Source of the DNA: Micractinium sp. NFX-FRZ
Taxonomy: Eukaryota; Chlorophyta; Trebouxiophyceae; Chlorellales; Chlorellaceae
Direction: 5' to 3'
DNA length: 64,000 nt
NCBI GenBank assembly: GCA_029339195.1
Contig: JAPTJF010000193.1
Span: 1 to 64,000, forward strand
The notes beneath the pieces were generated by a model. It was not told the DNA's origin. It searched no databases and saw only the letters and a program-made list of their open reading frames with translations. Positions 2 through 62,200 of the stretch are shown here, in pieces (positions within the stretch are counted from its first letter, which is position 1; every line of letters begins with the position of its first letter). The position numbers and the translations under genes were made by a program.

Positions 2-3000
2 GGTGCTGGGGCGGGCACATGCGACGAGCAGCACGGGGGTGTTGCCGCTGCCGCTGAGGAGCTGCAGCAGGAGGTGGGTGCTGCTGATAGTAGCGAGCAG
101 CCGGCTGCGGTTGCCGGTGAGGTTGAGGAGCAGCAGGTGGGTGCTGCTGCTAGCAGCGAGGAGCAGGAGGCGCGTGCTGCTGCTAGCAACGAGGAGCAGG
201 AGGCGGGTGCTGCCACCACCGAGGCGGCAGCAGTGCCAGCACCCACAGCAGCAGCCACTGACACGAAGGACAGCTGCTCTGGCAGCGAGCCGGTGCAGCA
301 GCCCAGCGAGCTGCAGCCAGTGGACAGCAGCGCCAGCGGCCTCTCGCCGCAGATGTCGGTGCGGCAGCGCCTGGAGATGCGCGAGCGGGAGCGGCAGCAG
401 CAGGCGGCAGCAGGCGCGCAGCTGGCGCCGCCGGCAGAGGCTTCCGGCAGTCCTTTCTCACCGGTGGGTGCTGCGAGTTAGCTGCTGATTGCGGCTTGGG
501 TGCTGGCTTTTGCTTGCAGCTGGGTGCAGGAACTTGCTTACAGCACAGCTGTTTTGAGGTGGCTAGGGCGTTCCATCACAGCCGTCCTCACTGCCCTTCA
601 CTGCCCTCTTCCTGGTCCACTTTCTGCAGCGCCCTGGCCGCTCCCCAACCCCGGCTGCCTCGCGCCCGCACAGCCGCGTGGCAGGGTCGCCCTCCCAGAG
701 CCGCCTGGCCAGTGGCCACAGCTCGCCGGCCCTGACGCCGCGCCGCCCCCCCATGGAGCGCCGCATGGCTGGCGGTGCTGCCAGCGCTGCTTCTGCCAGG
801 AGCCCGCCGGTGTCGGCTCGCGGCAGCCTGCGAGAGGGTGCTGCTCGCGGCGAGCCCAGCTATGCCAGCAGCCACGGCAGCGGCACGTCCAGCCGCGTGA
901 GCGGTGACGGCAGCTATGTCTCCTCCCTGCTCCGCCCCCCCGCGGCCTATGTGGCGGCGGTGGAGGCCACTGAGAGCCGGCGGCAGCTGCGCGCACAGGC
1001 CAGTGTGCCCTCCACCTACAAACCCAAGGTGTGTGTGAGGAGGCAGGCTGGGTTGCAGCATTGTCGGCCTGCCACCACCGCCTCACATGTTTCTCTGCCG
1101 CCCAGCACCCTGCTTGTCCACACCTCGCCCTGCCCCGCCCCAGCCTGTGGCCGCTCATCCTTGGTACACCCACCGTGCCTTCAGTCAACCATCCCCACTG
1201 CGTTGCCTCCAACGTCGCCCCTCCCCCTGCAGGCCACACAGTCCCGCCCCTTCAAGCTGGAGTGCAACGAGCGGGCCAGCTACGACCACACGAGGGTGGC
1301 AGAGGAGGCCAAGCTGACCAGCGAGGAGCGCAAGGCCAGGCAGGCACGTGGGTGCTGAGACAGGGTGCTGCTCATGAGACAGGGTGCTGTTTGGTGGTTG
1401 GTGCCCAGCTGCTTGGTCTGCTGCTCTTGGGTGCACTGGTAAGGGCAAGCTGATCAGTGCAAGGAGGAAGGCCAAGCAGGCACATGGGTGCTGCCTCACG
1501 GGTTGTGGATGCGGGCAGCAGGTGCCAGTGGGTGCAGGCCTCTATATCGTGGAGGCACGTGCCTCAACCTGAACATGAGCTCTCATCTGTGCACTCGCAC
1601 TTGTTGCGCTCAAGTTGCTGCCTACCTGCGCATGTTGCCGCTGCATACATTTGGTGTCCTGACACGGTGCTTGCTGCCTGTACTGCCCCCGCTGCCCTGC
1701 TGATTTGCAGGCGGTGGCGGGGCGTGAGGAGCTGGCTCGAGAGCTGAGCCAGGCGCGCGAGCGCTGCCGCCGCACGCTGACAGCGCAGCCCATGCGCCCA
1801 GCGCCGGCGCGCACAGCTTCGGTGGGTGCCACCGCTGGGGTTGAGCCAAAGTTGCTTGCCGCTGGCAGAGGGTCCATCTTGCATCTACCCACTGTCTGCT
1901 GGCCCTGCCAGTTGCCCTGTGATCCTGCCTTGCAAGCAATGTGCCCCCACTCTGCCATGCTCCCCGCCTGCCTTGCTCACCGACCCATCTGCCTGCTCCT
2001 GCCCTTCTCGGCTTCCATGCCCGTTCCATGCAGCCCCCCGTGTTCAAGCTGTTCAAGCTGGCCTCACTGGAGCGCCACGACGCATATGCACAGGCGTTTG
2101 AGCTCAAGGTAAGGGGTACCCATGCAACCGGGCTCTTCTTGGCAGTACGTCCCCGCCCCATGCTGCTGGCCCCATGCATGACCAGCCACGGGTTCAATCT
2201 GTGCCTGCAGACCTGCTCACCCAGCTGACCTACCGCCTGAACATGGCATGCAGGTGGCGGAGCAGCAGCGGCAGGAGGGGGAGATGCACCGCCTGGCCAG
2301 GTGGGTGGCGCGAGGGCAGTTTTGCTGGCGACCCAGATGCGCACCTGATGCGGTGCATAATCTCGTGGGTTTGAGGGGGGCGGGCGTGGAGGAGGTGGAG
2401 AAGGAGGTGGAGCGGAGAGCAGTCACAGGGCGAGAGAGGCATCAACCTGGGACGGCTGGTAGTGCCTGCTGCATGCCGCCATCCCCTCATTACTCACTCG
2501 CCTCTGCCTGCCTGCCTGCCTATGCAGCCATGGCAGCCGCACGCCCTCCCGCATTGGCGCCCTGCACGGCGGCGGCAGCGCCAGCCCCAAGGAGGGCGGC
2601 AGCCCGCCCGCGCTGGCCACAGGGGAACGGGCGGTGCGCTATGCTGAGCGCAGCATGAACCGGCGACAGCGGGATGAGGCGGCGGCGGCAGCCAAGGAGG
2701 CAGAGCGGGTGGCGCAGCTGGTGGGTGGGTGGGAGGGACAGGGCGGGAGGGACAGGGCGGGATGTGAACCTGGGGGGAGCAGGCGTCAGTGCCCTGCTGC
2801 CACTGTCTGCCTGCTGTTTTGCACTCTCTGGTGCCACCTGGCGTGTGCGGCGTTCAGTCCTTGCCTGTTCACTCGCCCGTCGGCATGCAGACTGCGCAGG
2901 AGAAGGCGGAGGAGGAGGAGCGGCAGGCGCACCGCTTCAAGGCACGCCCCATGCCCGACTTTGCCGCCCGCCCTGTCTTCACTCCCAAAAAGGACAAGGT

Positions 3001-3382
3001 GAGGGTCGAGGTGCTGCTTTGCCGCGCTTGGTGCTACCCGGGGGGGTCGTGAAGAGCTGGGTGCAATGCGGCACGCCCAAAGCCCTCGGCTGAGGGGCAA
3101 ACTACCAGTGCATCTGCCGTGTGTGTGCGCTAGGCAGCGTCTCTTCTGCGCCCTGCCAGCAGACTGCCACTGCTCCGCCACCCATCTCCCAGCACCCTAC
3201 CGCCGGTGCTCAATCATCTCATGCAGGCCAAGCCATGCACAGTGCCCTGCGAGTTCCGGTTCAGCGCACGCTTTGGTGCAGGCAGCGGGGAGGCGCAGCT
3301 TGCGCAGGACACGCCTGGCAGCAGGCCAGTCACTGCGCAGGGCACGCCGATGGGCAGGACGGCGACCAGCAGTGGAAGGTGA
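2..3382 (+). CDS. TPX2-like microtubule-associated protein (5' partial)
   Basis: Nine exons join in phase: <2-463, 630-1028, 1233-1343, 1711-1821, 2034-2108, 2254-2300, 2528-2720, 2891-2998 and 3227-3382 (TGA). They give 553 visible residues, and the frame is open at the window edge, so the start lies outside. The first ~155 residues are acidic and Ala/Glu-rich, followed by a Ser/Arg-rich linker. The seen motifs resembling the TPX2 family are RPFKLECNERA (around residue 292), a Glu/Arg-rich helix, then FKARPMPDF and a Lys-rich run near residues 480-505. Known TPX2/WVD2 proteins bind microtubules and, in the founding member, help build the spindle. Intron 3 needs a GC donor (CAG|GCACGT), because the GT four bases later breaks the frame. 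TPX2 membership is inferred from motifs only; a generic coiled-coil protein is the alternative. Confidence 0.62.
134..207 (+). repeat. Coding minisatellite, 36-bp unit, about two copies
   Basis: Two near-identical 36-bp units in exon 1 of the TPX2-like gene encode a repeated Ala-Ala-Ala-Ser-(S/N)-Glu-Glu-Gln-Glu-Ala pattern. A weaker copy precedes them. The unit length is a multiple of three, so copy-number change keeps the frame. Confidence 0.7.
1447..1493 (+). repeat. Intronic echo of exon 3 end plus donor (TPX2-like gene)
   Basis: This intron 3 segment is a diverged copy of 1311-1357, shifted by 136 bp. It carries the last codons of exon 3, the GC donor and the first intron bases. It can be read as K-L-I-S, then a shifted stretch ending KAKQ, against the true KLTSEERKARQ. 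Confidence 0.75.
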
Positions 3383-3566
3383 CCAGACACATGGCCGCGT
3401 GTGCCAGCAGCTCCGACCCGGCAACGGCATTGGTGCTGCTCAAACGTAATCAAACTTTAAAAGCATGTATCTGCCTCTCCTTCTGTCCACATGTGAATTG
3501 GACGTTATACAACTTGTTATGCAACTTGTTATTCACCCGCCCGGTCACCTGCATGAATGGCGCGCA

Positions 3567-3571
3567 TGTAA
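3567..3571 (+). terminator. TGTAA polyadenylation signal, TPX2-like gene
   Basis: TGTAA, the usual green-algal polyadenylation signal, lies 185 bp past the stop codon. Assignment is by position and strand only. Confidence 0.5.
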
Positions 3572-3881
3572 AGCAAGCACGACAGCAGCATTGCCAGGAC
3601 AGGTCGGGGCTGTTTTGCAGCAGGCAGGCGCTTCCCTGCACAGCACAGCAAAGTCTGGGTTCTGCATATACTTTAACACAGGTAGGCATGGCTGCCTCGC
3701 CTGCTGCCGTGCCTGCCCCAAGTCTTCCTTGCTCTCACGAACCATAACGTGACTTCTCAACAGCGTGCCGCTCTGCTGCATGCACAGGCCTTTCCTCCCT
3801 CTTTTCTACGCCACCTCCTCCAAACCTCTGCTCTGCTCCTGCCGCCCCCAATGCTGCCTATGTGTGGGCCTGTGAGAGAGC

Positions 3882-3886
3882 TTACA
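3882..3886 (-). terminator. TGTAA polyadenylation signal, ATP2
   Basis: TGTAA on the minus strand, 485 bp past the ATP synthase beta stop codon, implies a 3' UTR of roughly 0.5 kb. Confidence 0.5.
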
Positions 3887-4370
3887 ATCTCGCAGCTCCC
3901 GCGGCGGCAACTGCAAGCATTCCCCGCGCAGCATCAACTGCGCATCTTTTGGCCCAGGCTTGCGTGAAAAGAGGAGAGCTGGTGGTGAGGCTGTATCATC
4001 GTTTGGGGTCAACATTGTTGAGAGGCGGCGCCAGGCCGGTTGCCAGGCTGGCACGCCCGCCCCGCCCGCGGCATGCTAAGCACAGCAGGCTCGGCCCACT
4101 GCTGCCGTGGTGCGGGACGGCGCACGCGCCGGAAACTGGCCAGTCGCCCAAGAGGTGTGGTGGCGGTGATGAGGGAGAGCGCTGCGGGCGTGGCGTGTCT
4201 TCAGGGCGGCCGCTGTGCTACGCCGCGGCGCCTTGGCACTCCACGCAGCACGTGCCCCGCGCGCCTCCCCCGAGCCGGCTGCTGCGGCCGGCCCGTCTGC
4301 GCTGCTCCGCCGGCGCTGCCGGCGTGCAGGCAACCGCCCGTGGCAGGCGCTAAGCTCCGGGGCGTGAAGC

Positions 4371-7145
4371 TTACTTGTTGGCCGCCATCTCGGCCGCCAT
4401 CTTGTCGGCCTTGTCCATCACCTCCTTGATGTCGCCGTTCTGAGGCAGGGAGGCACAAGACAGAGAGGGGGGATGACGTAAGCACGTTGGAATCGGTGGG
4501 AAGCGCGGCCTTGTCAAGTACCTCCTTCATGTCGCCGGTCTTGAGGCAGGGAGACAGAGAGACACAGGGCAGGACAGGGAGGGATAGTGTGCCAGCACAT
4601 GGGAGGTTGGGGTGAGGTGACACACTGTGCCAGGGGTTTGGAGGGATGCAAGGAGAAGCAGGGGGTTTGCAGGTGGGAGGGTGGATGGGGTGAGCTTGTT
4701 ATGCTTGCAGCCGCCAGGCTGCAGCCAACCTTTTACCGCCCCGGCACAGCTCTCAAACCACAGGGACCATCCACTTGCCAGCGTCCCAGTGCCATGAGCG
4801 CCACGATGCATCACAGCACAGCACATCCCCCCCATGATGTGCGCCCGGCTCATTACGCCCCCCATGATGCATGGCCAGCTCAGCATCTGCCCTATGCACA
4901 CGTCACGCTCACCATGTAGAAGGCCATCTCGGGCAGCTCGTCGTACTTGCCGTCCAGCACGCCCTTGAAGTCGGCAATCGTGTCCTTCAGCTCCACGTAC
5001 TTGCCTGCAGGCAAGCAGTGACAAGAGGAAAGGGCAGGCGGAAGCAGCCTGAGCAGGCAGGCAGTGACCAGAGGAAAAGGGCAGGCGGAAGCAACCTGAG
5101 CAGGATACAAAGTCGGCGCTCGTGCCCCTCATCTCCACAGCGCTTGCACGTGCCCCAGTACTGTGGTCAAGTTGGAGGTATGAGGGGGCGGGGCGGTGAT
5201 GAATGGGGAGGCGGCACGGAACGAGGCACAAGAAACACTTGGGGCAGCGCCTCCGGCAGCCCAACAGCTTTTGCGGCGCCACAGCACACACAGAAGTGGC
5301 CGGCGCAGCTCAGCGCACCTGGCGTGCCGGTGAACACCTCGGCCACGGCAAAGGGCTGGGAGAGGAAGCGCTGGATCTTGCGCGCGCGCGCCACGGTCAT
5401 CTTGTCCTGCAGGTGGCACGAGACGAGAGGCAGGCAGGCGGGGGAAGGTCGAGGGTCGAGGTGAGGTTTGGATGAGATGGGCGGCCCGGGTGTGAACGGG
5501 CCCTGAGGTTGCGGCTCCAGCGCAGGCCGCACCAAGGGACCACCCAAGGCAGGGTGCAGCAGATGCACGGCGGCATGCCCAGCCGCCGGCCCACACACCA
5601 CCTGGGTAGCTCATTTATAAGCCCAGCTCCCCAAAAATCACAGCCACTGACCAGCAACCGAGTAGCAGGAGAGGGGGGACCGGCTCGCATGACCAAAATG
5701 CTCCCAGTGCCCGCTCACCTCCTCGGACAGCTCATCCATGCCCAGGATGGCAATGATATCCTGCAGGTTGCGGTAGTCCTGCAGCACCTTCTGCACGCCA
5801 CGAGCCACTGCAGGAGGGGGGCGGCGACATGATGCAGGCGACACAGAGGGGTGGGGCTGGGTGAAGGAGGATGCCAGGCAGAGGGGCGACGGCATCCAAG
5901 CATCAACCCTCTCCAAGAACACCAGGGCCTGTGGAGGAGCAACCGCTGCGCAACTGTCAGACCGCGTCGGCCGGCCCCAGCTGTCCCGCCGCCGCCTCTT
6001 GAGAGCAAGGGGAGGCGAGCGGGCACTGCTGCCGCCCAGCCGCCCACTCACCGCCGTAGTGCTCCTCTCCCAGGATGCGGGGGTTGAGCATGCGGGAGGT
6101 GGAGTCCAGGGGGTCCACCGCCGGGTAGATACCCAGCTCTGGAGGTGGGGGGGCGGCGGGGGGGGCAGTTTGTGTGGGGAGCTCAGGGAAGGGGCGAGCG
6201 TCGACCCAAGGGGCGGAGCCCTGTTCTTCTTGACAGGGAGTAATTGCCGTGGGACTGGCTGACAGAGGGGATGGCACGGATGGGACGATGCAGGGAATAG
6301 GGTTGCAGCCGAGGCAGGGAAGCAAGGTGGGGCACAGCACAGGCTCCCGGCTGGCCAGCAAGCCGCGGCACAGAGCAGGGCAGCGCACCCGCAATGCCGC
6401 GGGACAGCACGGTGGTGGCGTCCAGATGCGCGAAGGTGGTGGCGGGCGCGGGATCAGTCAGATCGTCGGCAGGCACGTAGATGGCCTGCCAGGGGGGGGG
6501 GAGGGGGGCAGCGGGGGCAGGGGCACAGAATGAGCGAGGGGCAGGCAAGGGAGGCAGCGCTGGATGTAACCCTGCTGCACAAATTGTCCTTGTTGGAGGC
6601 GAGACAACCAGGCCGGACACCCACATCACCTCTAGCCCCACACACCCTCACTGTTCCTTACTCACTGCACTGGGGCGATTGAGCGCTTTGGTGGCAGTGG
6701 CTGCTGCACCCTCCCAACCCTTCCTAAACACGGTGCAACCCGTGCAGACATGCATAACTACAGAAGGACAGCCCAGGCGCACCTGCACGGAGGTGATGGA
6801 TCCCTTCTTGGTGGTGGTGATGCGCTCCTGCAGCTGGCCCAGATCGGTGGCCAGGGTGGGCTGGTAGCCCACGGCCGAGGGGATGCGGCCCAGCAGCGCA
6901 GACACCTCGGAGTTGGCCTGGGAAGGGGGGGTGGGGCGGGGAGGGAGGGAGTGAGGGGGCAGTGACAGCAGGGTGAGGAGGGGGAGCAGTGCAGGGCAGG
7001 AGGGCGGTGTCCACTGGAGCAGCACACCAACCACCCATCTCACGGGCATGCCACCCATCCTGTGTACAAGGGGGCACCACATCCCTCTGTACAGGATGCC
7101 TTGGCGCACACATGGAGCGAAATGAGGGCAAGCCCACCTACCTGG

Positions 7146-7187
<42 letters not shown>

Positions 7188-10524: not shown

Positions 10525-13500
10525 ATGCTGGACTCGCCAGCACTGGAGGGAAAGCAGCGGCTGGAACTTCTCAAGGCCTTGGAGCAGCTCACTGCCGCAG
10601 CGTTCACATCGAAACTACAGACCAGCAGCAGCGGTGGCGGCGGTGGCACGACCGCCGCCGCCGCCGCCGGTGCAGCCGCCCCTGCTGCCGGCGAGCCATC
10701 ATCTGCTGCCCCTGCCGCCCAGCCAGGCACGGCCGCGCTGCTGCGTGCAGCGCTGCAGCAGCAGTTCACCGGGCTGCCAGAGTACTCGCCCGCCTGGTAT
10801 GCCGCATTGGACGCGGCAGCAGCGCGGCAGCAGGCACAGCGGGATGCGGTGGTGGCGGCGCTGAGCACGCTGCCCCACGGCTTCTCAGCGTTGGATCGGT
10901 GTCTGATCACAAACGCAGCGCTGGTGTCCGGCAAGTACCAGGCCTTCTACCGTGCCTGGGTGGCGGCTGTGCAGGTAGACACACAAGGGAGGCTGGGGGG
11001 CAACCTGGCGGGTGGTGCTTGGAGTGGGACCGAGGGAGGTCGGTAGCGTGGCCACCATGGCCCTGGCTAGCTGGCCTGGGCGCTGCTGCAAGCCACAGGC
11101 GGCGCTGTTGGCCGCCAGCATGTAGTGTAGTCCCCTTGCCACGCACCCACACCCCACACCACACCACACCACAGCCCGCTCATTACAGTTGCACCCTCAA
11201 CAGGGCCATCTAACGCCACACCACACCACAGCACAGCACTCTCACCTCAAGCGCACCCACGCCCCGCTTGTTTGCCCCCCCCGCCCGCCTCCTACACCAC
11301 GTGCTGCCACCTGTGCAGGGCAATGCCCTGGCTGCTGAGCTGGCGGAGGCTGACCGGGCGGGGCGGCTGCCTCGTGAGCTCTACAACCACTACACCATCA
11401 TTGTGAAGGTGGGGTGGGGGACCAGGGACAGCGGGCAAGTGTGTGCCTCAAGAAAGGGGGAAAGCAGCCAGAGAAAGACAAAGGTGTGTGGTTGGGGATG
11501 CAGGGGTGGAGGCAAAGCGCACAGCAGCGGCAGTTTGGGAGCTGTGCAGCAGCCCTTTTTTGACAGGGCCATTGCAAACGTGGGAGAATGCGTGGGGGAG
11601 GTGCAGGCAGGCAGACTCTGCCAGCCCTGCAGCACGAGCGCTCAAGAGGTGCACGTGTGGGCCGGTGCCCCCTCCCCTCCGTTGACCCTGCCCATGCCGC
11701 CGCCTCTGCCCCAGCCGCCCTCTTGCCCCCCGCCACCTCCCAAGTCTCCCACGTGCCCTGCCCGGCCCTCCCTCCTTCCTGCCCCAGGCCCCCGGGGGCG
11801 GCTACTCCCAGGTGCCATATGCCGCCTACTTCCCTGCTGAGGTGGCAGCCATTGTGGATGAGCTGGACAAGTTTGTCACGGGTGCGAGCCAAGCGGGGCT
11901 TCAGGCAATTTCTCCTTGTTGTATGTTATTTGTTGGTTTGCCTTGCGTTGTTGTTTCTTTATGGAGGGTGGTGCATCGCAGGGTCGTCGGGGGCCGGGCT
12001 GGCTCCGAGCGTGGCCCTCCAAGCTGGTGCAGGTGCCAGGGAGGGGAGGGTGAGCACATGATGCGGGCAACTGAGGGCTTCCGAAGCCTCCCACCTCGCT
12101 CCTCGGGAAGGGTGGGGCTGCCGGCAACAGCCCGCTAGGCCCGTGCCTATTCACATGTTCCGCACGTCTGCCTGCCCCTGCCACCCCCCCTTTGCACCGG
12201 CCTGCAGTGCTTACGGACACACCCACCGACCACCCCCAAGTTAAGCTGCAGTACCTCGCCTACCTGCAGCAGTACAGGTGCGGCAGTACCTGGTGTGGGG
12301 CATGCAGCAGTGCAGTGTCCCGCGACCCGGGAGGGCAGGCGGCCTGCCGTCTCTGCTGGCATGTCCCTGCTGAGTGGCTGCCCGCCTGCTGTGCTAGCTA
12401 GCCGCCCGCGCCCCAGCCTGCGTGCTGCTGTGGTTGACGTCACAGCCCGCGCCCGCGACTGCTCCTTCAACCCGCGCGGTGCCTTCCCAGCTGCCTCCCC
12501 TGCCTTTGCACTGGCGTCCATGCTCTGGCTTGCCGCTCCTCATCAATCCTTGCCCCGGTCTGACTTCCCCGGCCCTGCCCTTGCTGGCCCCTCCCCCAGC
12601 AGGGCGTGCCTGGCTGAGACGGACATTGACAGGCTGGAGGACAGCTGGCGCCAGCTGGATGGTCTGTGGATGGCAATACGCTACCCCATACAGGTGGGAC
12701 AGGTGGTCAGGCATGGCTGCAAGCCTGGAGCGGCGGCAGCGGCACGTGTGGGGTTGGCGTGAGGAGGAGGTGCCTGCCGTGTTCCCATGTTGCAAGGCTT
12801 CAACAACCAGCGGCTGGACACTGTTAGCCTCCGCCTCCTGCTTTCGTCATGGTGCCCTCATCAACGCTTCCCCGTCCGGTGTGATTGCCCCCTGCTCAGA
12901 TTGTTCATGACATCGAGTACGGGTACTGCGACCCGCTGAGATGCAAGGTGGGGGTCCCAGGGTGGGCATGGGCATGTGTCTGACAGAGTAGTTGGGAAGG
13001 CACAAATGCAACCAATCGTTGTGTCCATAGGTGGAGTGCTGGGGTTGCTGCAGCTGGCATGCATGCCCACCTGCCCGCCCGCCGCGGCTTAGACCTGTGC
13101 AACGCCAGCACCGCTTCCTGCTTGCCTTCCGCCCCCCCTCCCCAGGCACGTCCCTGCCGGCCCTTGGGCTGCTGGCTCTTGAGTGTGCGGCGCAGGCTTG
13201 GGGGCCATATGTGGGTGCTGCTCACACTCGCGCTGCTCATGAATCGCTCATTAGTTGCTGCTCAGTGGCCCTGCAGGTGCAGCCCGAGTTCTCTCTGCGC
13301 ATCTTGGACGACTCATACGAGCGGCAGAACAAGACCATACAGCAGATACAGGTGCAGCCCCAAATTGGGGGGGCCGGGCAGCGAGGGATTGGCAGGCAGC
13401 GAGGGTGTGTTTGAGCTGCACGATGCACCAAAGTGTGTGGTGTGTGTGGGACAGGGCACACCCGGCACGCTTCCAAAAGGCTTCCACATGCTGCACATGT

Positions 13501-16500
13501 CACAAGGTTCCAGAGCGGAGCCTAGTTTCCACACGGTGCCTGGGACCCTGGCAGAAGAAATGGGGCAAAGCTGGACATGCAGATGTCAGCAAGGGGCTGC
13601 CCATGCTGCCTGCTGCCTTGCAGGGCGTGATGGAGTCATACTTTGAGAAGCGCAGCGGCCCCCTGGCGGCCGCCGGCCTGGCGGGCCTGCGCCGCAGCAG
13701 CGCCGGCCTGTACTACCTCCCCTTCCTCACCGGCGCCAGCCTGCACTTCCGCTTTGCGGGGCAGAGCATCCCCAACAGGCGAGGGCGGGGCGGGGCACAA
13801 GATGGGTCCGGCGGGGCACAAGATGAATGAATACGCCCTTAGTGCACCCTCCACAACCCACCTAGCGTGCCCCTCAAAACCTCGGGGGTGGGGTGGTTTG
13901 GGTGGCCAGGTCACGGTGCGCTGGAAGGGGGCTGGAGGATATCCCGCACCTCCAAATGGAGGGAGTGCAATTGCCCGCCTCTGCCTGAGCGACACCCCAC
14001 CCCGGCCCTACTCCTCATCGCTCGCCACCCTGCCCCACGTTACCCCCCACCCGGTCGCCCTCCCCCCCTGGCAGGTCGGATGTGCGTGCGCAGCATGGGG
14101 TCAAGATCTTTTTCGACCCGGTGGCGGCGGACACGCGGGCGGTGGCGGCGCGGGAGCTGGCCCTCCAGGTGGGGTTGGTGCCCGCCCCTTCCCTCTGGGC
14201 ACGCGACACCGGGATGGGGTGGGAAGCCCGCCATGCAGCCCCGGGGACCTACAATACAGGGGTGCAGGCGGCGCACACACCGGGCCCAACCTCAAGCCCA
14301 GACAGTCCCACGCTGCCCTTCCCAGCCCGCACACCTTACTAAGGTGTTACCTTGCCCCTCCCTTGCACACACCCTCATGTCCCACCCTGGCACCCCCCCG
14401 GCATCCTTCCCCTGAAACACCACCCTTGCATCCCACCTGTGCGCACACACACAAACGCAGGTGCTGGCGGACCCCTCCCGTGCCGAGGCCGTCCATCCCC
14501 TGGACTCCACCGTCTTCCTAGTGGCCCCGCACGAAGTGGGGCACGCCGTGTATGGGCTGGATGCCTTGCGGGAGGTGAGTGGCTGTGGGTGTGGATGTCA
14601 CTGACTACCCTGCTTGCAGGCAGGTGGGGGGCTGTGAAGGTTGTTGTGCATGGAGCATGCGGGAGGTGAGCAGCTGTGTGTGTGGGTGTCATGGTAATGC
14701 ATGCAGGGAGGTGGCGTGGCAGGACAGCCTGTGCCACTGGCGCGTCCGCCACGCCATGCACATCGTCCTCCACGCTTGGCACTTGGCCTGCCCGCCTGCC
14801 GACCCTGCAGGACCGGCCCACCCAGCTCCATCGTCCCGCCATGAAGTGCACCGCCAGAAAAGTTCCGAGCTGACCCGCTTGCTGCCCACCCTGCCTGCCC
14901 CTGCCCACCCGTGTTGCCAGGTCATCAAGCCGGCCACCAAGACGCTGCTGGAGGAGCCGCGTGCTGACCTGGCTGCGCTGCACACGCTGCGCCTGATGCG
15001 CGAGGGCAACCACCTCTCACAGGCGAGGCGGGCGCTGCTGTGCTCACATGCTGGCACCACCAGATGTGCTGGCAGCATCGTTCGGCACCGCGCCACACAG
15101 CATCGCATCGCATCGCCCCTCACAGCACAGCACAGCGCAGCACAGCACAGCGACGCATGCGTCCCCGGTTCCGCACAGCATGTGCGCCCTGTGTTGCTCA
15201 CCCCTCCGCCCTCCCTGCCTCCCCTTGTGCCGCGCCACGCAGGAGAGCGTCGAGCGCCTGCTGTGCTGCTTCCTGCTCTCCGACCTGCGTCGCTTCGCGG
15301 CCTGGGACAGCACCGCCACCCGCCCTTACACAGGCAAGCGCCGGCGGTCGAGCGCCGGCAGGGCTGCTGCTGTTGGTGAAGTGCCTGCAGTCCAGGGCCT
15401 GCAGTGCAGGCAAGCAGCCGACGAGTGCGGCGCTCATGGCCCACCCAACAGCGCGCAGTGGATGGCGCTGGCACTGCCGTGCTGGGGTGGCAGCTTCGTT
15501 GACACTGCCAAGGCCATACTCAATTCACAATTGACCCGGCTCAGAAGCCGGTTTTGCCTCCCTCCGGCTGGGAGCCAACAGAACAACTCCTGCTCTGCCC
15601 AGCCTGCGCCCTGCCACCCTGCAGCAACACAACAGCCAAACGCTGGTGTGCATGGGCCCTAACCCGACTGCAGTGAGCGCGGTGTGCTGCCCAGCCTGCG
15701 CCCTGCCACCCTGCAGCAACAGCGAACAGCCAGCCAAAGCCTCCAATCGTGCCCCCCAACCCTGCTGTGTACTGCAGTGAGCGCGGTGAGCTGCTGGGCG
15801 CGGGCCGAGGCGGTGGGGCTGGTCACGCTGTCGCCGGGCGACCGCAGGCTGGTGATGCACGACAGCAAGGTGGGGGTGCCCGAGGAGGTGACAGAGCTGT
15901 TGTGACCCAGATCAGCTGAGGAGGTGCCAATGAGTGCAGGCTTGTAATGCACGACAGCAAGGTGGGGGTGCCCGAGGAGGTGACAGCCAAAGGGGTGCCG
16001 CTCTCCCCTCAGCGTTCGGGTGACCCCCTCTCCTGTGTCAACCTTTGCTGCCTGCAACTGTTGCTCTGCCACACATCACCTGCTGCCTCTGTCGCTGCCC
16101 GGCTTCAGGTGGATGCCTTCCTGGCTGAGCTCCCGCCTGGCTGCACCTCTTTCTCATCTCTCTCCAACCCTCAGCCTGCTGCCTCTGCCGCTCCCCGCCT
16201 TCAGGTGGACGCCTTTTTGTCTGAGAGCTCCCGCCTGTTTGAGTCGATCCTGGCGGCGGAGGATGCCATGGATGGACGGCGGGTGGAGGAGATCTTGGCC
16301 CAGGTGAGGTGCCTGTTCAACTCCCCTTAAGGGTGTTTATCTTTGACACGTTACTATGTAGGTGGGGTGCAGCCAGGGGCAAGCAGGCAACTTGTGCGAC
16401 GGCATGCGGCTGCTGCTGCGCCCGCCCGCCTGCCCGCCCGCCTGCCTGCCTGGCCCACATGCCTGCCTGCTGGCCCACATGCCTGCCTGCCTGCCCGCCA

Positions 16501-16734
16501 AGCACTGTCCCGCATGGCTCAAGCTTGCCTGCCGGCCCTCCCAATCCCGGCCCACTGCCCTGGCCGCAGATGGAGGCGTGTGAGAGCAGCGCCATTGTGC
16601 AGCACCTGGTCAGGCAGCTGTTCCGCCCCCCACCACGTCAGTCAGCAGCAGCAGCAGAGCCAGCCGACGCACCAGAGCCGACCCCGGGGCTGGCCACAGC
16701 GGCGGCGGCGGTCGCGGCACCCGAGCGTGCATGA
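10525..16734 (+). CDS. Putative HExxH zinc metallopeptidase, 609 aa
   Basis: Fifteen in-phase exons: 10525-10974, 11319-11408, 11788-11881, 12208-12277, 12603-12693, 12900-12947, 13277-13351, 13624-13778, 14075-14168, 14461-14574, 14921-15022, 15243-15333, 15778-15869, 16205-16303, 16570-16734. The product has no signal peptide or membrane helix. Residues 413-417 are HEVGH, a canonical zincin zinc-binding/catalytic motif, and EEPRAD follows at 438-443, as expected for the third zinc ligand of a gluzincin. This resembles dipeptidyl-peptidase III-like (M49) layouts. The ~610-aa length and the RYPIQIVHDIEYGYCDPLR region also recall bacterial CiaB-family proteins; both are recollections, not searches. 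Introns 8, 11 and 12 need GC donors (GCGAGG, GCGAGG, GCAAGC). The start is uncertain, with an in-frame ATG at 10378. The substrate is unknown. Confidence 0.8.
14659..14693 (+). repeat. Intronic echo of metallopeptidase exon 10 donor
   Basis: Copy of 14568-14602 shifted 91 bp, keeping GCGGGAGGTGAG, that is, the last exon codons and an intact-looking GT donor. A cryptic 5' splice site is therefore possible. Confidence 0.75.
15600..15722 (+). repeat. Duplicated segments including exon 13 acceptor echo
   Basis: A ~30-bp AGCCTGCGCCCTGCCACC-type segment occurs at 15601-15630 and again at 15693-15722. Between them, 15666-15689 copies the exon 13 acceptor and first codons (true site at 15778), shifted 105 bp with CTGCAG intact. 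Confidence 0.75.
15937..15986 (+). repeat. Near-perfect 50-bp tandem copy of exon 13 end plus donor
   Basis: Matches 15844-15893 with about two mismatches in 50 bp, shifted 93 bp. It spans the last nine codons of exon 13 (RLVMHDSK), the GTGGGG donor and the start of intron 13. This is the best-preserved echo in the window and presumably the youngest. Confidence 0.85.
16080..16146 (+). repeat. Intronic echo of exon 14 acceptor and start
   Basis: Copy of 16177-16243 shifted 96-97 bp. It includes the pyrimidine tract, CTTCAG acceptor and first codons (VDAFLAELPP against the true VDAFLSESSR). The acceptor is intact, so an alternative exon start is conceivable. Confidence 0.8.
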
Positions 16735-17792: not shown

Positions 17793-20700
17793 TCAAGCCG
17801 TGGCCTTCAGCGTCTCCGCCACCTCAGCAGCAAAGTCTTTTGCCTCCGTCTCCAGCCCCTCCCCCACCTGCACCCGCACGAAGCCAGACAGCTGCAGCTC
17901 CGCCCCAAGCTGCTTGCTGGCCTGCTTGAGCACATCTTGGACCTGCAGAGCGGGGAGGGAAGCGGCGGGAGAGTGGGCGTGAGCTCACAAGGGAACAAGG
18001 TGGCAGGTCGCTCGGAGCTGCTTGCTGGCCTGCTTTAAGACATCTTGCACCTGCAGGGCGGGGGGACGGTGGGCGTGAGGGGCAAGTTGGAAACTAAACG
18101 GGCGGCAGGCTGCTGTGCCGCAGCACATCTTGAGCTCGCAAGCAGGGCCAGGGGACGGGGAGCGGCGGATGGGGAGGGTTGCCCAACAACACGGCAGGCG
18201 TATCAGCAGGGTGCGGTATGTGCGGTTGGCTGCACGAGCATTTCCGGGAGCGGCAAGAGGCGGGGATGTTTGGGAGGATGGGATCGTGGGCGAAGAACAG
18301 CGGTATTACAGTGGGGTGTGAGCCTCGCCAAGTGTGGTACACGCCTGCTCTAGTGGGCACACCCTAGATGCCCTGCTCTTAGCAAGGAGCAAGCCCCACA
18401 CCGTAGTGCCACACTGTACTGCCACACCCACCTTTTGGTCGCCATCCATAATGAATGCCTGCTCCAGCAGGCACACATCTCCATAGTACTTGTCCAGCCG
18501 CCCAGCAACAATCTTGTCAACAATCTTCTCCGGCTTGCCTGCGGCGGGGCGGGGGAGGGGAGGGCAATCCGGACAAGGGATGAGGCAAGGGATCTGGGCC
18601 CCGCCCTGCACTTTGAGTTCCCGCCCCCCTGGCAATCTGGAAGACAGCTCTCCCAGTCCCCCATCCCACCCTTCCCTTACCCTGCTCCTCCGACTTGAGC
18701 GCCTGCTCCCGCAGCAGCCCAAATACTGCCACCCTCCACGCACCGTCCCACCCTCCCGCCCCCGCTCGCCCGGCTCCAGCGCCTGCTCCCGCAGCACCCA
18801 CCTCTCCTGCACCTCACAACCCACGTGCAGACCCACCACTTCTTACAACCATTGCCTGCGCCCTCCCCCGACTTGAGCGCCTGCTCCTCTAGAGCACACC
18901 GGCAGTCCTCAAATCCACATTCACTCACTCAGGATGGAACCCACTTCCTACAACCATCGGCTGCACCCCCACCCGACTTGAGCGCTTGATCCGTTGGCAC
19001 CCACCTCTCCCCAAACTCACCACCCAAGTGCAGGCCACGCACGTGCAGGCCCAGGTCCCAAAGCCCTTGCCTGCGCCCTCACCCGACTTGAGCGCCTGCT
19101 CCCGCAGCACCCTGCTCTCCGCCTCCAGGGCCTCCGAGGGCACGGCGGAGCGGTCCAGGAACTTGGGCTGGGCGCCCACCACCTGCATGGCCAGCTTGTG
19201 GGCCAGGTCCTGCAGGCACACAAGACCGTGGCAGGGAGGGGGGGAGGGAGGGGGGAGGGAAAGGGGCAAAGGTTGTTCAGGAGATGTGATGCATTGGGGT
19301 GGGCCCACACCACCTGCATGGCCAGCCGGTGCGCCAGGTCCTGCCAGGCAGTGGAGTGGCAGGGAGGGAGGGAGGGGGGGAGGCAGGGAGGGAGGCTCAG
19401 TCAAGGTCGCAGTAGGGGATTTGGGTGGGGTGCCACCCGCCTGCATGGCCAGCTTGCGATCCTGCGCAGCGCGGATGAAGTGAAGTGCAGTGCGGTGCAG
19501 GGGTGCCAGAGTGGCAGGGCAGCTGTGCAGGGGCAGCGGTGCGGGAGGAAGCACAGAGCAATGCCCGCCTGCCGCCTCCCTGCCAACCCATTGCCTGCAC
19601 GCGTGCCTGTCCCCGGCCCTTCCCCATTCCGGGCACCGCCCTCCCTCTCACCCACCGCCCCGCACCTGCGCCGCCGCCGCCGCTTCTCCGGCCAATGGCG
19701 CGCCGTTGCCGCTGCGCAGGGCCACCAGGCCAGCAATGCGTCCCAGCCCGGGGGCCACGCTCTGGTGCATGTAGGCTCCAATCACGCCCCCCGGCGCCTC
19801 CAGCCGGAAGGCGCGCCGCAGCCGGATGTTTTCCCGCACCGACCCCGCCAGCCCCACCACCGCCTCCTCCAAGCTGCGGTCGAGCAGGCGGGCAGGCCGG
19901 GAAGGCAGGGCAGAGAGGGATGGGTTGGCCACGGCGGCGGGGGCAGCATAGGGTGGCCATGTGGGGGGCAGCAAGGGGTGCACAGGTGGGGGCGGCAGGA
20001 TGCTGTGGCATCATCGTGCATGCCCAGGCCGCTGCTGGGCACTCCTGCCAGCGGACGTGCCGCCTCTTTGGGGGCTGCACCCGCCCCTGCCGGCCCATAT
20101 GCCATGCAAGGCCCAGCACTCCCACCCCCCTTCCTGCAAGCCTCACTTGCTAACCCCAGGGCATGGTCACCCCCCGCCGGAGCATCCTCCGCTACCTCAC
20201 ACACACCTCCCCCCTCCATACTCACCTGCCGCCATCCGCAAACCCTCCCTCCACCCTCACCTGCCGCCCCCCGGCATCGCCGCCCCCCGCAGCGCCTCCT
20301 CCCCCAGCTCGCTGCCGCTGCCGGGGCGCAGCGTCGCCACGCCCAGGGCCGCTGCCGCAGCGGACCCAACCAGCGATCGAAACTGCTCGTTGCGAGCCAC
20401 AAAGTCTGTCTCGCTGTTGATCTGCACACGCAATGGGAGTTTAAGCACAAAGCTTGTTTGGTGGTCGAATCGCATTGATATCATGGCAGGTAAATCAACA
20501 GGGAGGACCGGTTGTGTGCCGTTGACACTGGTAGAAGGTCCCAGCAAGCACAACCGACCGTTGTGTGCCATACACAACCCGGTCTCCCCTGTTGACCTGC
20601 AAGCTTTGGCAGACATCAGGCGTACCACCAATGCTCCGCTCATGTCGTTCCTGCCATGAAAGGCTCCCCCCTCCCGCCTGCTTCCACTGTTGAACCTGAG

Positions 20701-35088: not shown

Positions 35089-48359
<13,271 letters not shown>

Positions 48360-48390
48360 TGAGCGCCTCCCAAGACAACGATGGACAGGC

Positions 48391-48450
48391 AGTGTGAGCA
48401 GGCCAAGAAGCTGCCAAAGGAGCTGGGCAAGACGGCGGGGGAAACGTGAG
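48391..48450 (+). repeat. Echo of DHX16 last exon after the stop codon
   Basis: Reads QAKKLPKELGKTAGET-stop, a copy of the protein's C-terminal QAAKKLPKTVGKAAGEA-stop, about 92 bp downstream in the 3' UTR. Confidence 0.85.
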
Positions 48451-53961: not shown

Positions 53962-54619
53962 CGCCACCTCTCCCGCCAGCTGCCACCAGCCGTGGCGCCG
54001 CCCGCCGAATGCGGTTTCAAAGACGACAAATCAGCCTGTTTTGTGCAATTCTACCTAATAGCACACACTTCAAACTGTTGGGCAAATGCCTCAAAACGCG
54101 TTGAGGCACTTCTCGACCAATCAGACCAGTCAAGTTGGAGGAGGGCGGGGCTGGCGGTCCACCAGCCTGGGCGCCGGGGCGCCATCAGCACCTTTACCAG
54201 CCTGCTCCAACAGCAGCGCTGACCGCTTGTTTGGTAGGCTGCAGCACTGGGGCAAGCCTTCGGGCTGCCATCCTGACTCAAGAACTACCTTCTCGGTCAA
54301 GCCTGCACCCACCTTGCACCAACCGAACCGCCACCAGTCGGGTGGGAGGCCAACTTGATCAGGGCAACACACCAGCATCGATTGGGGGCAGACCCAGGTC
54401 ACGCCAATCGCTGCACATGTTGCAGTGATCACGGCAAGCAACTCAATGGGTGGAGAGTGTAGCCTGCGCGGCCCCGTGTTGCCCCCGTCCAGTGGCGCCC
54501 GGTGGCGCCGCCTCCAACCGAGTGCTTCTCCCCGCTGGCGTCCATTCCCCGCGTACCTGTCGGTCCCACCCCGCTCCCGGAGGCCCAACAACTCGGCGCA
54601 ACAGCGGCAAGGGCGCAAT
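53962..54619. promoter_or_regulatory. Divergent promoter region, coiled-coil gene / VAMP7
   Basis: 658 bp between divergent starts, with AT-richer patches (53990-54110, TCAAAACGCGTTGAGG palindromic stretch at about 54092-54107) consistent with regulatory DNA. No exon is supported. Confidence 0.45.
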
Positions 54620-57011: not shown

Positions 57012-57395
57012 CTCAGCCTGCCAAGCCGCCCTGCGCCTGGAGCAGCTGCGCGGCCAGGGCAGCGCCGGCACCGCGAGCGCGCCGGCATCTCTATGCCCTC
57101 TGTCCCACCGGTTTCATGAACATCACTCGGCAGCCCGCTGTGGCCACAATGGCAGCACGGCGCGCCAGCCCACACCCTTCTGACTGAATGTGCCCCCTCA
57201 CCTCCCCTCACTTCTGCTACATTCTGACAGTGCGCTGCCCCCTGTCCGCATGTGTGTACAGTACCTACCTTGCTACTCGCTCTCTGTCCTACCCCAGCAC
57301 TGCCCCCAACGACACACCACACATCCGCTTCTAGCCATCTTCCTGGCGCTTTGCCAAGCCGCACGGCTGCGGGAGCCTTGCCTGACTTTGGCTCT

Positions 57396-57400
57396 GTAAC
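57396..57400 (+). terminator. TGTAA polyadenylation signal, VAMP7
   Basis: TGTAA 385 bp past the stop codon on the coding strand. Confidence 0.55.
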
Positions 57401-58000
57401 CACGCCAGTTCAAAGTGAAGGCAGGCGAGGAGGGTGTGCACATGTCTGGATGTCAGCGGACGCCTGTGTTGGGGCCCAATCTGGCGTTGTGTGGTACTTT
57501 ACGAGCACAGGTGCCTGTGCGGGCTGGGGCCCCCACGCCCCGGCTGCCTCTTGTCTTTCGGTTCGCAAGTAGCAGCTCAGAACGACCGTGGACCGATGAA
57601 AAACGAAGCAAAACGAAGTGCTGGGTGCAAGGGATTCAGGCTGGGGCAGCCACAGGCATGCCAACGTGCGCCGCTGCCTACAGCAGCTGCTTGGTGAGCA
57701 CGGAAGGCATCGTTCGGCTCTGGGCTAAGCTTGAGCCTGCCTGCTTGGGCACGGGACTGCGCCTGGTGCAGGGCGCAAACTGCCAGCAAAGCAGAGAGAA
57801 GAACTGGTGGCCCTGGCCTGGTGCCAGCAGTACCGCGGCCCTGTTTCCCGCCAAGCAGCTGCCTCTCCCATCAGAGGTGGGAGAGCCAAGCTCTTCGGTA
57901 TACCACGCAATTAACCGAGCTCGATTGATGAGCTCGATTGATCAAGGGCGGACGAACAAGGAGGCGCTCGCTGAGTGGCCTCTGAGTGGCCTCCCAGCTG

Positions 58001-58360
58001 GGGCCAGGCGCAGTACCACCCACCTGCCGCCCACACACTTGAAATTTGAGCAAGGCCAACGGTTGCCCTCCAGCGGCATTATCCTGCCCACGGCCGCAGA
58101 GTTCTCCATTCGCTATTCACGTGTTCAATGTAGGAGCACCTGTGGCCCCAGGGCAAGGGGCCCTCCCTCCCTAGCCAGGCGCAGTACCGTCCGCACGCGC
58201 AAGAAGACCCCACTGTCCAAGCAACGGTCGCCCACCGGCGGCTTTCTCCTGTCCACGACCGCATAGTTCTGTAAGCTCATGGTAAAAGGTTTGACGGGTG
58301 CCCCTTGGCTACATGCCAGGGCTCTGCCGCCCTGGCCAGGCGCAGTACCGTCCAAGCCCT
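58001..58360. repeat. Diverged tandem repeat, ~161-171-bp period
   Basis: GCCAGGCGCAGTACC recurs at about 58003, 58174 and 58335, and an AACGGT(T/C)GCCC...CCGCA(G/T)AGTTCT block recurs at 58058 and 58223 (165 bp). Two full units and part of a third can be traced. On the minus strand the units read with weak protein similarity to each other. Confidence 0.7.
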
Positions 58361-59252
58361 CCACAACCGCCAACCGCCCGCGGGACTGCCTGCTGCTGCC
58401 CGGGCGGCCAATCAGACCTGCAGTCGCCTGCTTGTAACATTGTGACATGTCGAGACCATACGCTACGGGGCAGAGAGCGTCGGCTCAGGCTTGGTGCCAG
58501 GCACGGCAAATCCAGCATTCGCAGATGGATGGTACCCGGCGGCGCAGACCGACGCGGCGGTCAGCTGGTCAGGTGGGGCCACCCCAGCTCACTTGCCGCC
58601 CAGCACTATTAAGCCTTTGTTAAGGCCTTTCGTTAAGGGCATACTCGAGTGCAGGGAAGCATATGGCGCAGAGGACGTGTCGCTGCTGGCTGCCGCCCCA
58701 GCAAATGCCCATGTACTGCAGTCAACCGGCGGCCGCGGCAGACCGGCGCCGGTCGGGGGGCTGTTGGCAGCTGCCGGCCTCAGCCGCCAGGCCCTCTCCC
58801 CTGCAGAAATGGTCTGATCCGCAGCACCTGCACCTGAATTTCCACACCGATGTGCCCAGAAACCCGTGGGCCCGCGAGTATTGGAAGGTGAAGCGGTGTG
58901 GCAGCGGCTGTGCTGTACAGCCGATTTTTTTGTTGCCTTGAGATATGAAGCGCAGACACAAGAGCGCCCTGGCTGATCGCGTGGGTGGCCTGGGGCAGCG
59001 GTGGAACCCCCTGCTGCAGGTCTCAGCCTTCCCCGCATGAATTCTATTGCAATATGATCAGTGATAGTCCTAAGACGCCTGCACATCCCCACGGGGAGGA
59101 AATCCCGACCGCCCGGTGACTGGCCCGCAGACCTCAGACCGGGTGCCACGTGGCACAATGACCTCAAAGGCGGGAAGCATGCTGGACCATCGCCATTGCA
59201 ATTCAATTCATTCCCTCCGCCCCCGCCCAAGCGCATCCCGCCGTGATTCAAT

Positions 59253-62200
59253 ATGGCGGGGCGGGAAGGCAGCAGCGTTGCACAAGTTGAAGCCTCTCTA
59301 GCAAAGGACTGCGTCTCCTCTCTGAGCGTGGCCATCCAGCAGCTGGGTCTCTCCATCGATGGGTTCTATGATTGGCCTACCAAGCAGGGTGTGCAGCAGC
59401 GTGACCTGCTCGCCATGGCGGCCGCGGCCTGTGCTCCCGCCTGTGTAGCGGCTCTGCTCGGTGCTGGCGCCGATCCCAACGCCGCCAGCCCATCTGACGG
59501 CAACACGGCGCTGCACTGCGCCTGCAGCAACGCCAGTAGCAGCACAGCCCGCATCGTTGCTCTGCTCGTGCGAGGGGGTGCGGACAAGCTCCTCCCCAAC
59601 CGCGCAGGCTGCACCCCCTGCGACCTGCTCACCCTAGAGACCACCCAGGTGGGAATTGAGGGCCGGCGGCGATGCCGGGGTGCCGGGGAGGTCCCACTAG
59701 CCGTTTCCCGCCGCAGCGCCCTGGCGGCACCGCCCGGGAGTGGCGGCGCAGGGCAGCCTGCCTGCCCTCTGCCAGCCATGCACCTGCCTTGCTGCAGCAG
59801 CCCCTCATCCCAGACCCTTGCATCGCTGTTGAGCGCTCACCGCGTGCCGCTTCCGCCCCTTGACTGTGCGCCAATTGGCCGTTTGAACCCCGCAGGCGGC
59901 ACAGGCGCACGAGGCGCCGCCGCCCGAGGAGTGCGGCGACCTGCTGCTCCCAGAGTACAGCACCGATGACTTCCGCATGTTCTCCTTCAAGATCGACTGC
60001 TGCCCCCGCCTGTCCGAGTCACACGACTGGACGCTGTGCCCCTTCCAGCACCCAGGTGACTGCAAGGGTCGGGGCGGGCCGCACGCGCTGTGCCGGTGCA
60101 AGTACCACGCGTTGCGCGCGCGTTCAAACCGGCCCCCGCAGTTGCTGCCGGTAGGTTGACCACGCTGCCTCATGTGCGCTGTCTCGCCCTGCCGCAGGCG
60201 AGAAGGCGCGGCGGCGGGACCCCCGCTGCTACAAGTACCAGGGCCTGCCCTGCCCCGATTTCCGCAAGGTACTGGGGAGGGTCTAGGCGGGCGGGCGGCG
60301 CTTCCCGCCGAAAGCAGGGACCCGCCTGAAGAGCGGGCCATCCCTTGTTCCCATACCCCCCTGCCCTGTTGGGGGTGCCTTGAAGCTTGCAGCGGTCGAC
60401 TGCACGCTGTCTGGGCCTGTTCTGCGGGCATGCCGCCAGCGGCGGGAAAATTGAATTGAATGTGTGCCTCCCCGCCTCCCCCACTGTATCGCCTCCCCCT
60501 GCAGGGCACCTGCAAGCGCGGCGATGCCTGCACCTTTGCCCACGGCGTCTTCGAGTGCTGGCTGCACCCCAGCCGCTATCGCACACAGGTACGGGGCATG
60601 GCGGGGGGCGGGAAGTGGTGCCTGGGTGTCCAGCTTCCCCGCAACTTCCATGCTGGCCGAAACCGGACCAAGGCGGTCCGCAGCAGGCCAGACCGGACCA
60701 AACCGGACTGCCAACTTCAAATGATGACATTACACTATTAAGCTTGATTCTCTGCCCCTCGGGACCTCCCCTCCCTTACTCACTTCTCCTGTCAACCCTC
60801 CCTCTTTGTCATGCACTGCAGCTGTGCAAGGAAGGCGCTGCCTGCCGCCGCAGCGTCTGCTTCTTTGCACATGCCGTGGACCAGCTGCGCGAGCCGACCA
60901 TGACGGGGGCCGGTGAGCGCAGCCGCCCGGCCAGCAGTGCCAGCAGCAGGCTCAGTGCTGCCACTCCCCACCCCCTGCCGTTGGGGCGGGTGTGTGCAGG
61001 CAGCGCGGGGCGCTTTCCGAGGTGCAACAGTCGGCAGGCGGCCCTGGGCACAAGTCCAGTACGTTGCACGGGCAGCGCACGCTTCCCTACCATCACCCAA
61101 GTTTTTCCCGCCCTTGCTCCGGCAGCTCCGTCCCCGCCCTCACTCCTGTGCCTGTGCCTGTGCCCCTCCCTCCTCCCCCATCTCCCGCACCCGCCCTTGT
61201 GCCTGCAGGCATCAGCCAGCCCGGCTCGCCCCGCGGCCTGCTGCTGCCCGGGGAGGAGAGCCAGGACACCCCCCGCTCCTGGTCCCCCACCCCTGCCAGC
61301 AGCGAGGACAGCGTCAGGATGCTGGGCTGCTCAGCAGGTGGGCGCACAGGGCTGAGGCTGGGCGGGTTTGCTAGGGTTTGTGCGATACTGCAGTGGCCGG
61401 GCTGGTGCCAGAACGCTTGAATTGCATGGCAGCAGCGAGGACAGGGTCTTCGTGCTGGACGGCTTGCAAGCGGGGCGACGGTTGGGTGTGAGGGTTTAGG
61501 GTTTAGGGTAACGGTTGGGTGGGTGTTCTTACATGGCAGCTGCCCCCGGGCCCCCCCTTATGTGGCTTCTCGCCTGACGCCCCCACCTGCGCCCGCCCTC
61601 CGGCGCCCCCGCCTGCAGACTCGTTTGCCAAGTTTGGGTGCGCCGCCGCCGCCGGCAGCGCGCCTCAGTACGCGCAGTACGGTCGGCGCCACCACCCGCT
61701 GGCCTGCTCCGCCGACAGCGGCGTCAGCAGCCTGAGCAGCACTCCGGTGCTGGAGGGCTCCCTGGCCGCCTCGCTGGCAAACGGCGGCGACTCGCTCTGC
61801 CTGGAGCGCACCCTCTCCTCCCTGTCCCTCACCTCTGACGACATGAGCCAGGTGGGTGGAGGGGCAGCGGGGGGAGGTGCTGGGCTAGAGGGTGGCGTGG
61901 GCTGGCCTAGATGGCAACCGGTGGGGGCTGGCTGTCCCGAGATTGCACCTGCTCCCCCCTGTCCCTCACCTCCGACGACATGAGCCAGGTGGGGAGAGGT
62001 GCTGGGCTAGTGGGTGGCGTGGGCTGGCCTAGATGGCAACTGGCAGGGACTTGCTGACACTAGATGGGGGTTTAGGGGTTAGGGGCAAACCCTATCGCTC
62101 TGCTCCCTTTGCATCACCTCCGACAGGAGCCACTTGGGTGGGCAGCAGGGAAGGTGGGCAGGTGGGCAGAGCTGTGGGCGCTGCATGCCTGCCACTGCGC

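Follow-up and report, generated by a model that had tools for sequence, protein, structure and literature searches.

Decayed copies of exon edges lie in the neighbouring introns of a Micractinium genome

Introns in the genome of the green alga Micractinium sp. NFX-FRZ contain decayed copies of the exon edges that border them. This was confirmed in a window of 64,000 bases (bases 1-64000 of contig 193, ~66% GC, from a genome of 66.07 Mb in 838 contigs) and in further stretches of the same genome. We favour, at a probability of about 0.6, the reading that the copies stem from small local duplications in direct orientation which are hidden by splicing, and that their concentration at splice junctions reflects how long such pairs stay readable and which duplications are purged. 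An original prediction, made from the window, had named six genes with such copies: a TPX2-like gene, ATP2, a putative metallopeptidase, EF-Ts, DHX16 and TZF. The origin and growth of intron sequence can rarely be traced, as non-coding DNA loses its history fast; the small intron duplications of this alga leave a readable record of intron growth.

Together with the window, 24 stretches of 10 kb were analysed (23 on other contigs and one adjoining the window), giving 304 kb of examined DNA, of which 264 kb entered the earlier self-alignment counts. Genes were modelled with a purpose-written, self-trained gene finder, which yielded 551 introns with a median length of 237 bases and exons with a median length of 110 bases; in these models introns make up ~49% of the examined sequence. 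A set of 553 introns, in which those close to stretch ends were retained, was used for the junction tests. The models match the solved DHX16 chain (5z56_x) and the algal orthologues of the gene at window 10525-16734, which the original prediction had called a metallopeptidase and which matches Pfam DUF7897. Pfam further supports EF-Ts (EF_TS), a Longin/synaptobrevin gene and the TZF gene; no Pfam match was obtained for the TPX2-like fragment, whose name is that given in the original prediction. The Micractinium conductrix relative of the DUF7897 gene carries the source name ciab isoform A, and for one protein of the window the closest named relatives were from Micractinium (68, 65 and 59%), followed by Coccomyxa (52, 51 and 51%). 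These matches place the DNA among or close to the trebouxiophyte algae; Micractinium conductrix belongs to the Chlorellaceae (Trebouxiophyceae). According to the trained donor profile, C occupies intron position 2 in ~7% of the predicted introns (putative GC donors).

Local self-alignment at shifts of 15-450 and a score of at least 72 gave 231 nearby pairs in 264 kb, where three block dinucleotide shuffles yielded 1.0 on average; an earlier scoring scheme that failed to tell real sequence from shuffles was set aside. Low-complexity pairs were removed before several counts, and after this step 108 pairs were left, with a shift peak at 90-110 (28 pairs). In the junction test, each query joined 60 bases from the end or start of an exon to 12 intron bases and was compared with the intron that it borders, at a score of at least 36. 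Matches in the own intron were obtained for 33 of 553 donor edges and 31 of 553 acceptor edges, whereas at equal score neither reversed introns (0/553 donor, 0/553 acceptor) nor random other introns (0/553 donor, 0/553 acceptor) gave any. A chance origin was rejected on the basis of the shuffles and of these two controls. The intron across the far side of the exon matched in 6/480 and 2/482 cases, exon-interior segments in 1/184 and mid-intron segments in 20/335, the last figure taking both directions together and applying no complexity filter.

Overall, 58 of the 553 introns carry a copy of their own edge; the window contributes 18 (of its 120 introns) and the other stretches 40 (of 433; p 0.09). 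Copies were present in 16 of the 24 sampled loci outside the window, and in the last four loci to be sampled 8 of 72 introns held one, so that the phenomenon extends beyond the window as had been supposed. Within it, 10 of 34 DHX16 introns scored in the junction test and 0 of 15 ATP2 introns did, very likely because the gene finder took the ATP2 copy at 4486-4539 for an exon; the counts are therefore low there. The high GC content and numerous simple repeats of the region, and the low complexity of 123 of the 231 self-aligned pairs, would suit an artefact of assembly or haplotypes, or chance combined with low complexity. Against this stand the typical divergence of the copies of 10-25% with indels, the empty reversed and random-intron controls and the spread over two thirds of the sampled loci, which make such an origin hardly credible.

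All 64 junction matches are direct, and inverted copies were found in 0 of 553 introns. In 58 pairs, mismatches fell almost evenly on the three codon positions (77/667, 87/674 and 110/671), and 38 of the 42 gaps in the exon part were not multiples of three. The copies are dead, non-coding sequence, and functional alternative exons were rejected in view of the even mismatches and the frame-breaking indels. The splice dinucleotide was retained in 34 of 53 scorable copies (11 of the 64 could not be scored), which is near the neutral expectation of ~0.74 at a per-base identity of 0.86. That the copies are under selection as decoy, backup or alternative splice sites would agree with the recognisable exon edge and the splice site that is often kept with it; however, the evenness of the mismatches, the broken frames, the splice dinucleotide being present in just those 34 copies and the even spread of shifts over multiples of three (20, 22 and 19) make selection very improbable. 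The median shift is 107. In the 60 pairs with a shift of at most 220, the predicted clustering at 90-140 describes the middle half (97-136) but not the 5-95% range (67-190).

Each copy was said to match only its own neighbour. That the copies match their own neighbour was supported, and whole-genome searches with two DHX16 copies (at 40028 and 44459) returned only the copies themselves and their own sources. For these two copies, a dispersed repeat family was thereby rejected. Similarity between different introns was also seen, with 110 plus-strand and 28 minus-strand matches at E of at most 1e-3; among the best 20 plus-strand matches lengths were 25-104, the best two lay inside one array and several spanned contigs. 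One example of similarity across contigs is that between the window and locus L003 (104 bases, 73%).

Alignments confirmed copies in all six named genes. Where homology could decide, in DHX16 and in the DUF7897 gene, the working junction is the exon-side one, in line with the claim that the outermost junction keeps working: the solved DHX16 chain continues past the donor edge at 39921..39983 without the copy, and the DUF7897 orthologues read straight across junctions whose copies sit in the intron. At ATP2, homology left the question undecided, as the model agrees with a solved chain up to the last exon and the chain there aligns to the intronic copy. Thirteen exon-edge pairs were counted in alignments of DHX16. 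The copy sites of the window are as follows.

1306..1357, + strand: TPX2-like gene, working donor edge (38 exon and 14 intron bases), 79% identical to 1442-1493
1442..1493, + strand: TPX2-like gene, decayed intronic copy of the donor edge, shift 136
4406..4465, - strand: ATP2, acceptor edge of the last exon with the stop codon, taken as working; homology undecided between edge and copy
4506..4567, - strand: ATP2, intronic copy of the acceptor edge, shift 100, 84% identity; part of it was made an exon by the gene finder
14567..14600, + strand: DUF7897 gene, working donor edge by alignment
14658..14691, + strand: DUF7897 gene, copy of the donor edge 14567..14600, shift 91
15595..15690, + strand: DUF7897 gene, copy of the acceptor edge together with the intron 3' end before it, shift 92 (108-base alignment, 75%)
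15687..15794, + strand: DUF7897 gene, working acceptor edge with the intron 3' end before it; in three orthologues RPYTVSAMSCWARA spans the site
15844..15894, + strand: DUF7897 gene, donor edge in use (...HDSK|gtgggg); the orthologues have HDSK|VDAFL or close variants of it
15936..15986, + strand: DUF7897 gene, copy of the donor edge 15844..15894, shift 92, 96% over 51 bases, tail homology absent by eye
16079..16139, + strand: DUF7897 gene, copy of the acceptor edge, shift 96, source 16175..16237
16175..16237, + strand: DUF7897 gene, working acceptor edge by alignment
17908..17955, - strand: EF-Ts, working acceptor edge by alignment, with the EF_TS Pfam match
18016..18063, - strand: EF-Ts, copy of the acceptor edge, shift 108
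36930..36968, + strand: DHX16, copy of the acceptor edge 37102-37140, shift 172
39400..39432, + strand: DHX16, copy of the acceptor edge 39509-39541, shift 109
39921..39983, + strand: DHX16, working donor edge by alignment and solved chain, intron starting gtgagg
40028..40090, + strand: DHX16, copy of the donor edge 39921..39983, shift 107, 86%; one of the two copies searched genome-wide
41727..41750, + strand: DHX16, short copy of the donor edge 41589-41612, shift 138
42444..42501, + strand: DHX16, copy of the acceptor edge 42541-42602, shift ~100
43120..43168, + strand: DHX16, copy of the donor edge 43016-43064, shift 104
43805..43861, + strand: DHX16, copy of the donor edge 43667-43724, shift 138
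44224..44283, + strand: DHX16, working donor edge by alignment
44326..44390, + strand: DHX16, copy of the donor edge 44224-44283, shift 102, with a recognisable intron tail (z 10.8)
44459..44506, + strand: DHX16, copy of the acceptor edge 44553-44598, shift 92-94, in the same intron as the 44326 copy; the other copy searched genome-wide
45161..45364, + strand: DHX16, arrayed copies of 45419-45476 (acceptor edge with the end of the intron), by alignments
46947..46984, + strand: DHX16, copy of the acceptor edge 47060-47097, shift 113
47243..47361, + strand: DHX16, two more copies of the donor edge 47119-47186, by alignment
48401..48449, + strand: copy of a coding end with its stop codon, source 48311-48359, shift 90; a non-splice boundary
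61768..61865, + strand: TZF, working donor edge by alignment
61905..62002, + strand: TZF, copy of the donor edge, shift 137; homology runs on into the intron (61869-61943/61991-62065)

In EF-Ts, several overlapping copies lie at 18661-19456, with shifts of ~80, 105, 131, 203 and 258. Some of these were called exons, which gave repeated KLAMQDLAH-type stretches in the model. As in ATP2, decayed exon-edge copies can thus be mistaken for exons by gene finders, a point of warning for annotation.

Introns that carry a copy are longer than those that do not (medians 358 and 230 bases, p 1e-12), and a copy was found in 51 of 268 introns of at least 240 bases compared with 7 of 285 shorter ones. The difference of ~128 bases corresponds to about one unit, as intron growth through local tandem duplication would predict. 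To call introns built from such copies was too strong, given that these 58 introns are about a tenth of the set and that 2968 of 143,818 intron bases (2.1%) lie in copies that are still legible.

Evidence for a tandem unit came from the flanks of the copies. In 49 pairs with a shift of at most 150, homology continued on the intron-side tail (mean z 2.65, z>2 in 39%) and not on the exon-side flank (mean z 0.27, z>2 in 10%); further decayed homology on the intron-facing side and none on the other is what a tandem unit predicts. Complete tandem arrays were found as well, at locus L021 9053 (a 95-base unit in four copies by shifts of 95, 190 and 283), at L008 634 and at L020 2085 (a 71-base unit, 96%, intron-internal). 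The array at L021 9053-9376 is young, with units ~91% identical that hold the exon edge, the splice site and the intron start.

Several observations weigh against a simple model in which whole units are duplicated in tandem at uniform positions, simulated here with assumed indel rates and uniform ages. In the 20 young pairs (identity at least 0.9), z>2 was reached in 45% and z<1 in 50%, compared with 68-94% and 2-26% in the simulations; the match reached a median of 10 bases into the intron instead of 23-38; exon parts above 60 bases occurred in 2 of 60 pairs against 37% simulated; and copy starts less than 43 intron bases from the working site were seen in 4 of 60 pairs against 39% simulated, a count for which the search target began at intron base 15. 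The simple whole-unit model thus fits only partly. The claim that tandem duplication across the junction lengthens introns stood as far as orientation, tails and added length are concerned, but is not matched by the half of the young pairs in which no tail was seen; some copies would be partly tandem or displaced insertions, or have lost their tails otherwise.

Displaced templated insertion, in which a break in the intron would be filled with ~50 bases copied from ~100 bases away together with an unrelated spacer, is doubtful as the general explanation. It would account for the 10 of 20 young pairs with a tail z<1, such as 46947/47060 in the window and 9696/9773 at L021, and for the window pair 44459/44553, in which a clear pyrimidine tract exists only at the working acceptor, though its tail z is 2.9. 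Non-tandem insertions of such a kind are described in rice in the part of a review available here (PMC7407515). According to the same part, however, synthesis-dependent end joining leaves direct or inverted repeats (PMC7407515), and no inverted copy was seen in the introns studied here; exon-interior templates were almost absent (the single match among 184 segments), and tail-side homology and full tandem arrays exist.

The exon part is confined to 14-65 bases in the 60 pairs, at donors and acceptors alike, and the copies that begin less than 43 intron bases from the site in use belong to 1 of 30 donors and 3 of 30 acceptors (shift of at most 220). Tolerance could explain both the short exon parts and this avoidance, which at acceptors may protect the branch point and the pyrimidine tract; the avoidance could equally mark a mechanism centred on the junction. 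If large units are rarer, these restrictions could also produce a peak near 100 without a special unit length. Among complex pairs that lie wholly in introns, 21 of 23 have shifts spread over 15-130.

Such a junction-centred mechanism, for example transcription- or splicing-coupled breaks, would duplicate ~35 exon bases and the splice site ~100 bases into the intron and would be a main driver of intron growth, with the confined exon part, the junction excess and the missing tails as its signature. The raw counts speak for it and against general duplication with unequal readability. Under uniform placement of 72 clusters, 38 junction-spanning pairs were found where 12.3 were expected, compared with 8 intron-only pairs (15.6 expected) and 3 intergenic pairs (12.9 expected). 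In 335 introns of at least 220 bases, after complexity filtering, 55 junction and 13 mid-intron matches gave a ratio of 4.2, compared with 1.4-1.6 in simulations of uniform duplication and decay; this count and its exon extents were taken with a search target from intron base 43, which was also used in the simulations. By a second measure the ratio was 2.4 (54/739 junction, 9/296 intron-interior) and the simulated range 0.6-1.3. At least 4 intron bases were included in 38 of 52 pairs, compared with a fraction of 0.49 by placement (p 3e-4), and one sampling gave 0/289 for intergenic DNA. The same 38 of 52 pairs do not sustain the statement that the splice junction is always included.

These counts compare pairs of unequal lifetime. 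Where one copy is exonic, the pair can be recognised for about twice the time, because the working copy is constrained and the pair diverges on one branch only. In 76 independent pairs, those with one exonic copy occurred at 0.51 per kb of start positions, and the 8 intron-only and 3 intergenic-only pairs at 0.12 and 0.06 per kb. When pairs were matched for age (identity of 0.90 for one branch and 0.80 for two), 10 exonic pairs stood against 7 intron-only and 2 intergenic ones, a rate ratio of 1.21 that is not significant (p 0.43) and that rests on small numbers. A stricter cut of 0.94/0.88 gave a ratio of 0.81 (3 against 4). The looser cut of 0.85/0.72 gave 2.47 (25 against 11, p 0.008), which again favours the junction, at a level where two-branch pairs are hard to detect. 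Similar copies also occur inside introns, in intergenic DNA and at 5 of 114 coding ends, where 3 belong to the 63 ends with a stop codon and 2 to the 51 with a start codon. Two stop-codon ends, at window 48311-48449 and at L020 4658-4803 (4658/4749), are duplicated downstream with shifts of 90-91.

The excess of junction-spanning matches over intron-internal and random ones, by which the original prediction was to be judged, is present in the raw counts and not significant at matched age, and a tie between the process and splice junctions was not supported. Given these results, the copies at other boundaries and the 43-base avoidance, which is readable as tolerance, a junction-centred origin appears improbable. 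Targeting of splice junctions is unproven, and the concentration at junctions most likely results from a general process of local duplication combined with readability and tolerance. Why the copies sit at the observed positions is only partly explained.

According to the reading based on local duplication, small direct duplications would arise genome-wide, with shifts mostly of 70-200 bases. Their most likely source is replication slippage or the error-prone repair of breaks or paired nicks, either of which would leave tandem or partly tandem units. If such a unit spans an exon-intron boundary, its copy on the side of the exon body would stay in use and the other would end up in the intron, from which splicing would remove it, so that the protein would be unchanged and the intron longer by about one unit. 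The dead copy would then decay neutrally. An apparent concentration at junctions would follow for two reasons: the working copy stays constant and keeps the pair legible for longer, and duplications that are wholly exonic or too near the working splice site would be purged. The data show the copies with their direct orientation, adjacency and decay, the greater length of the introns that hold them and, at sites where homology could decide, the use of the outer junction; the repair mechanism, the role of tolerance as a filter and the time course are inferred.

The exon half of a duplicated junction serves as a preserved template, so that a single genome can reveal the spectrum and rate of small duplications and the positions at which they are tolerated. 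In related algae, this opens a direct test of mutation bias against selection in intron length.

In the open-licence literature that was searched, no report of many introns per genome with decayed copies of their own junctions was found. Zhuo (2007) reportedly traced human introns to tandem arrays, and Gao and Lynch (2009) are said to have described internal gene duplication as a source of intron sequence.

Four known systems are close to the one described here, each compared as far as the consulted parts of the sources extend. In the potato RdRp gene, a tandem duplication across an intron-exon boundary, reported as a single case, created a new intron (Ma, Lan and Niu 2016, PMC4974935). As there, the unit crosses the boundary and carries the splice signals along; unlike there, where one gene received an extra intron, an existing intron is lengthened, the outer junction is used and many loci are involved. 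Tandem duplication of an exonic AGGT, through which introns are known to be gained (PMC3443670), shares with the present copies a local tandem duplication concealed by splicing. Its signature, an intron start that resembles the next exon start or an intron end that resembles the previous exon end, was found in only 3 and 1 of the 553 introns, and this route was rejected.

In rice, insertions associated with breaks are tandem, partly tandem or copied from less than 200 bp away (review PMC7407515), and patch-mediated repair yields duplications of 10-1000 bp, with paired nicks as the hypothesis of the authors (Vaughn and Bennetzen 2014, as given in PMC7407515). The mix of tandem, partly tandem and nearby non-tandem duplications is alike; the link to decayed splice junctions seen here sets the algal copies apart from that genome-wide insertion class, as far as the review excerpt describes it. 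Introners, in the excerpt consulted, are dispersed families that make new introns, with green algae among their hosts (PMC9860276). The algal copies likewise are repeated sequence tied to introns, but unlike members of a dispersed family the two that were searched match only themselves and their own sources. Duplication across an exon-intron boundary was thus already known, and the new aspect is the recurrence, across one genome, of decayed copies that introns carry of their own junctions.

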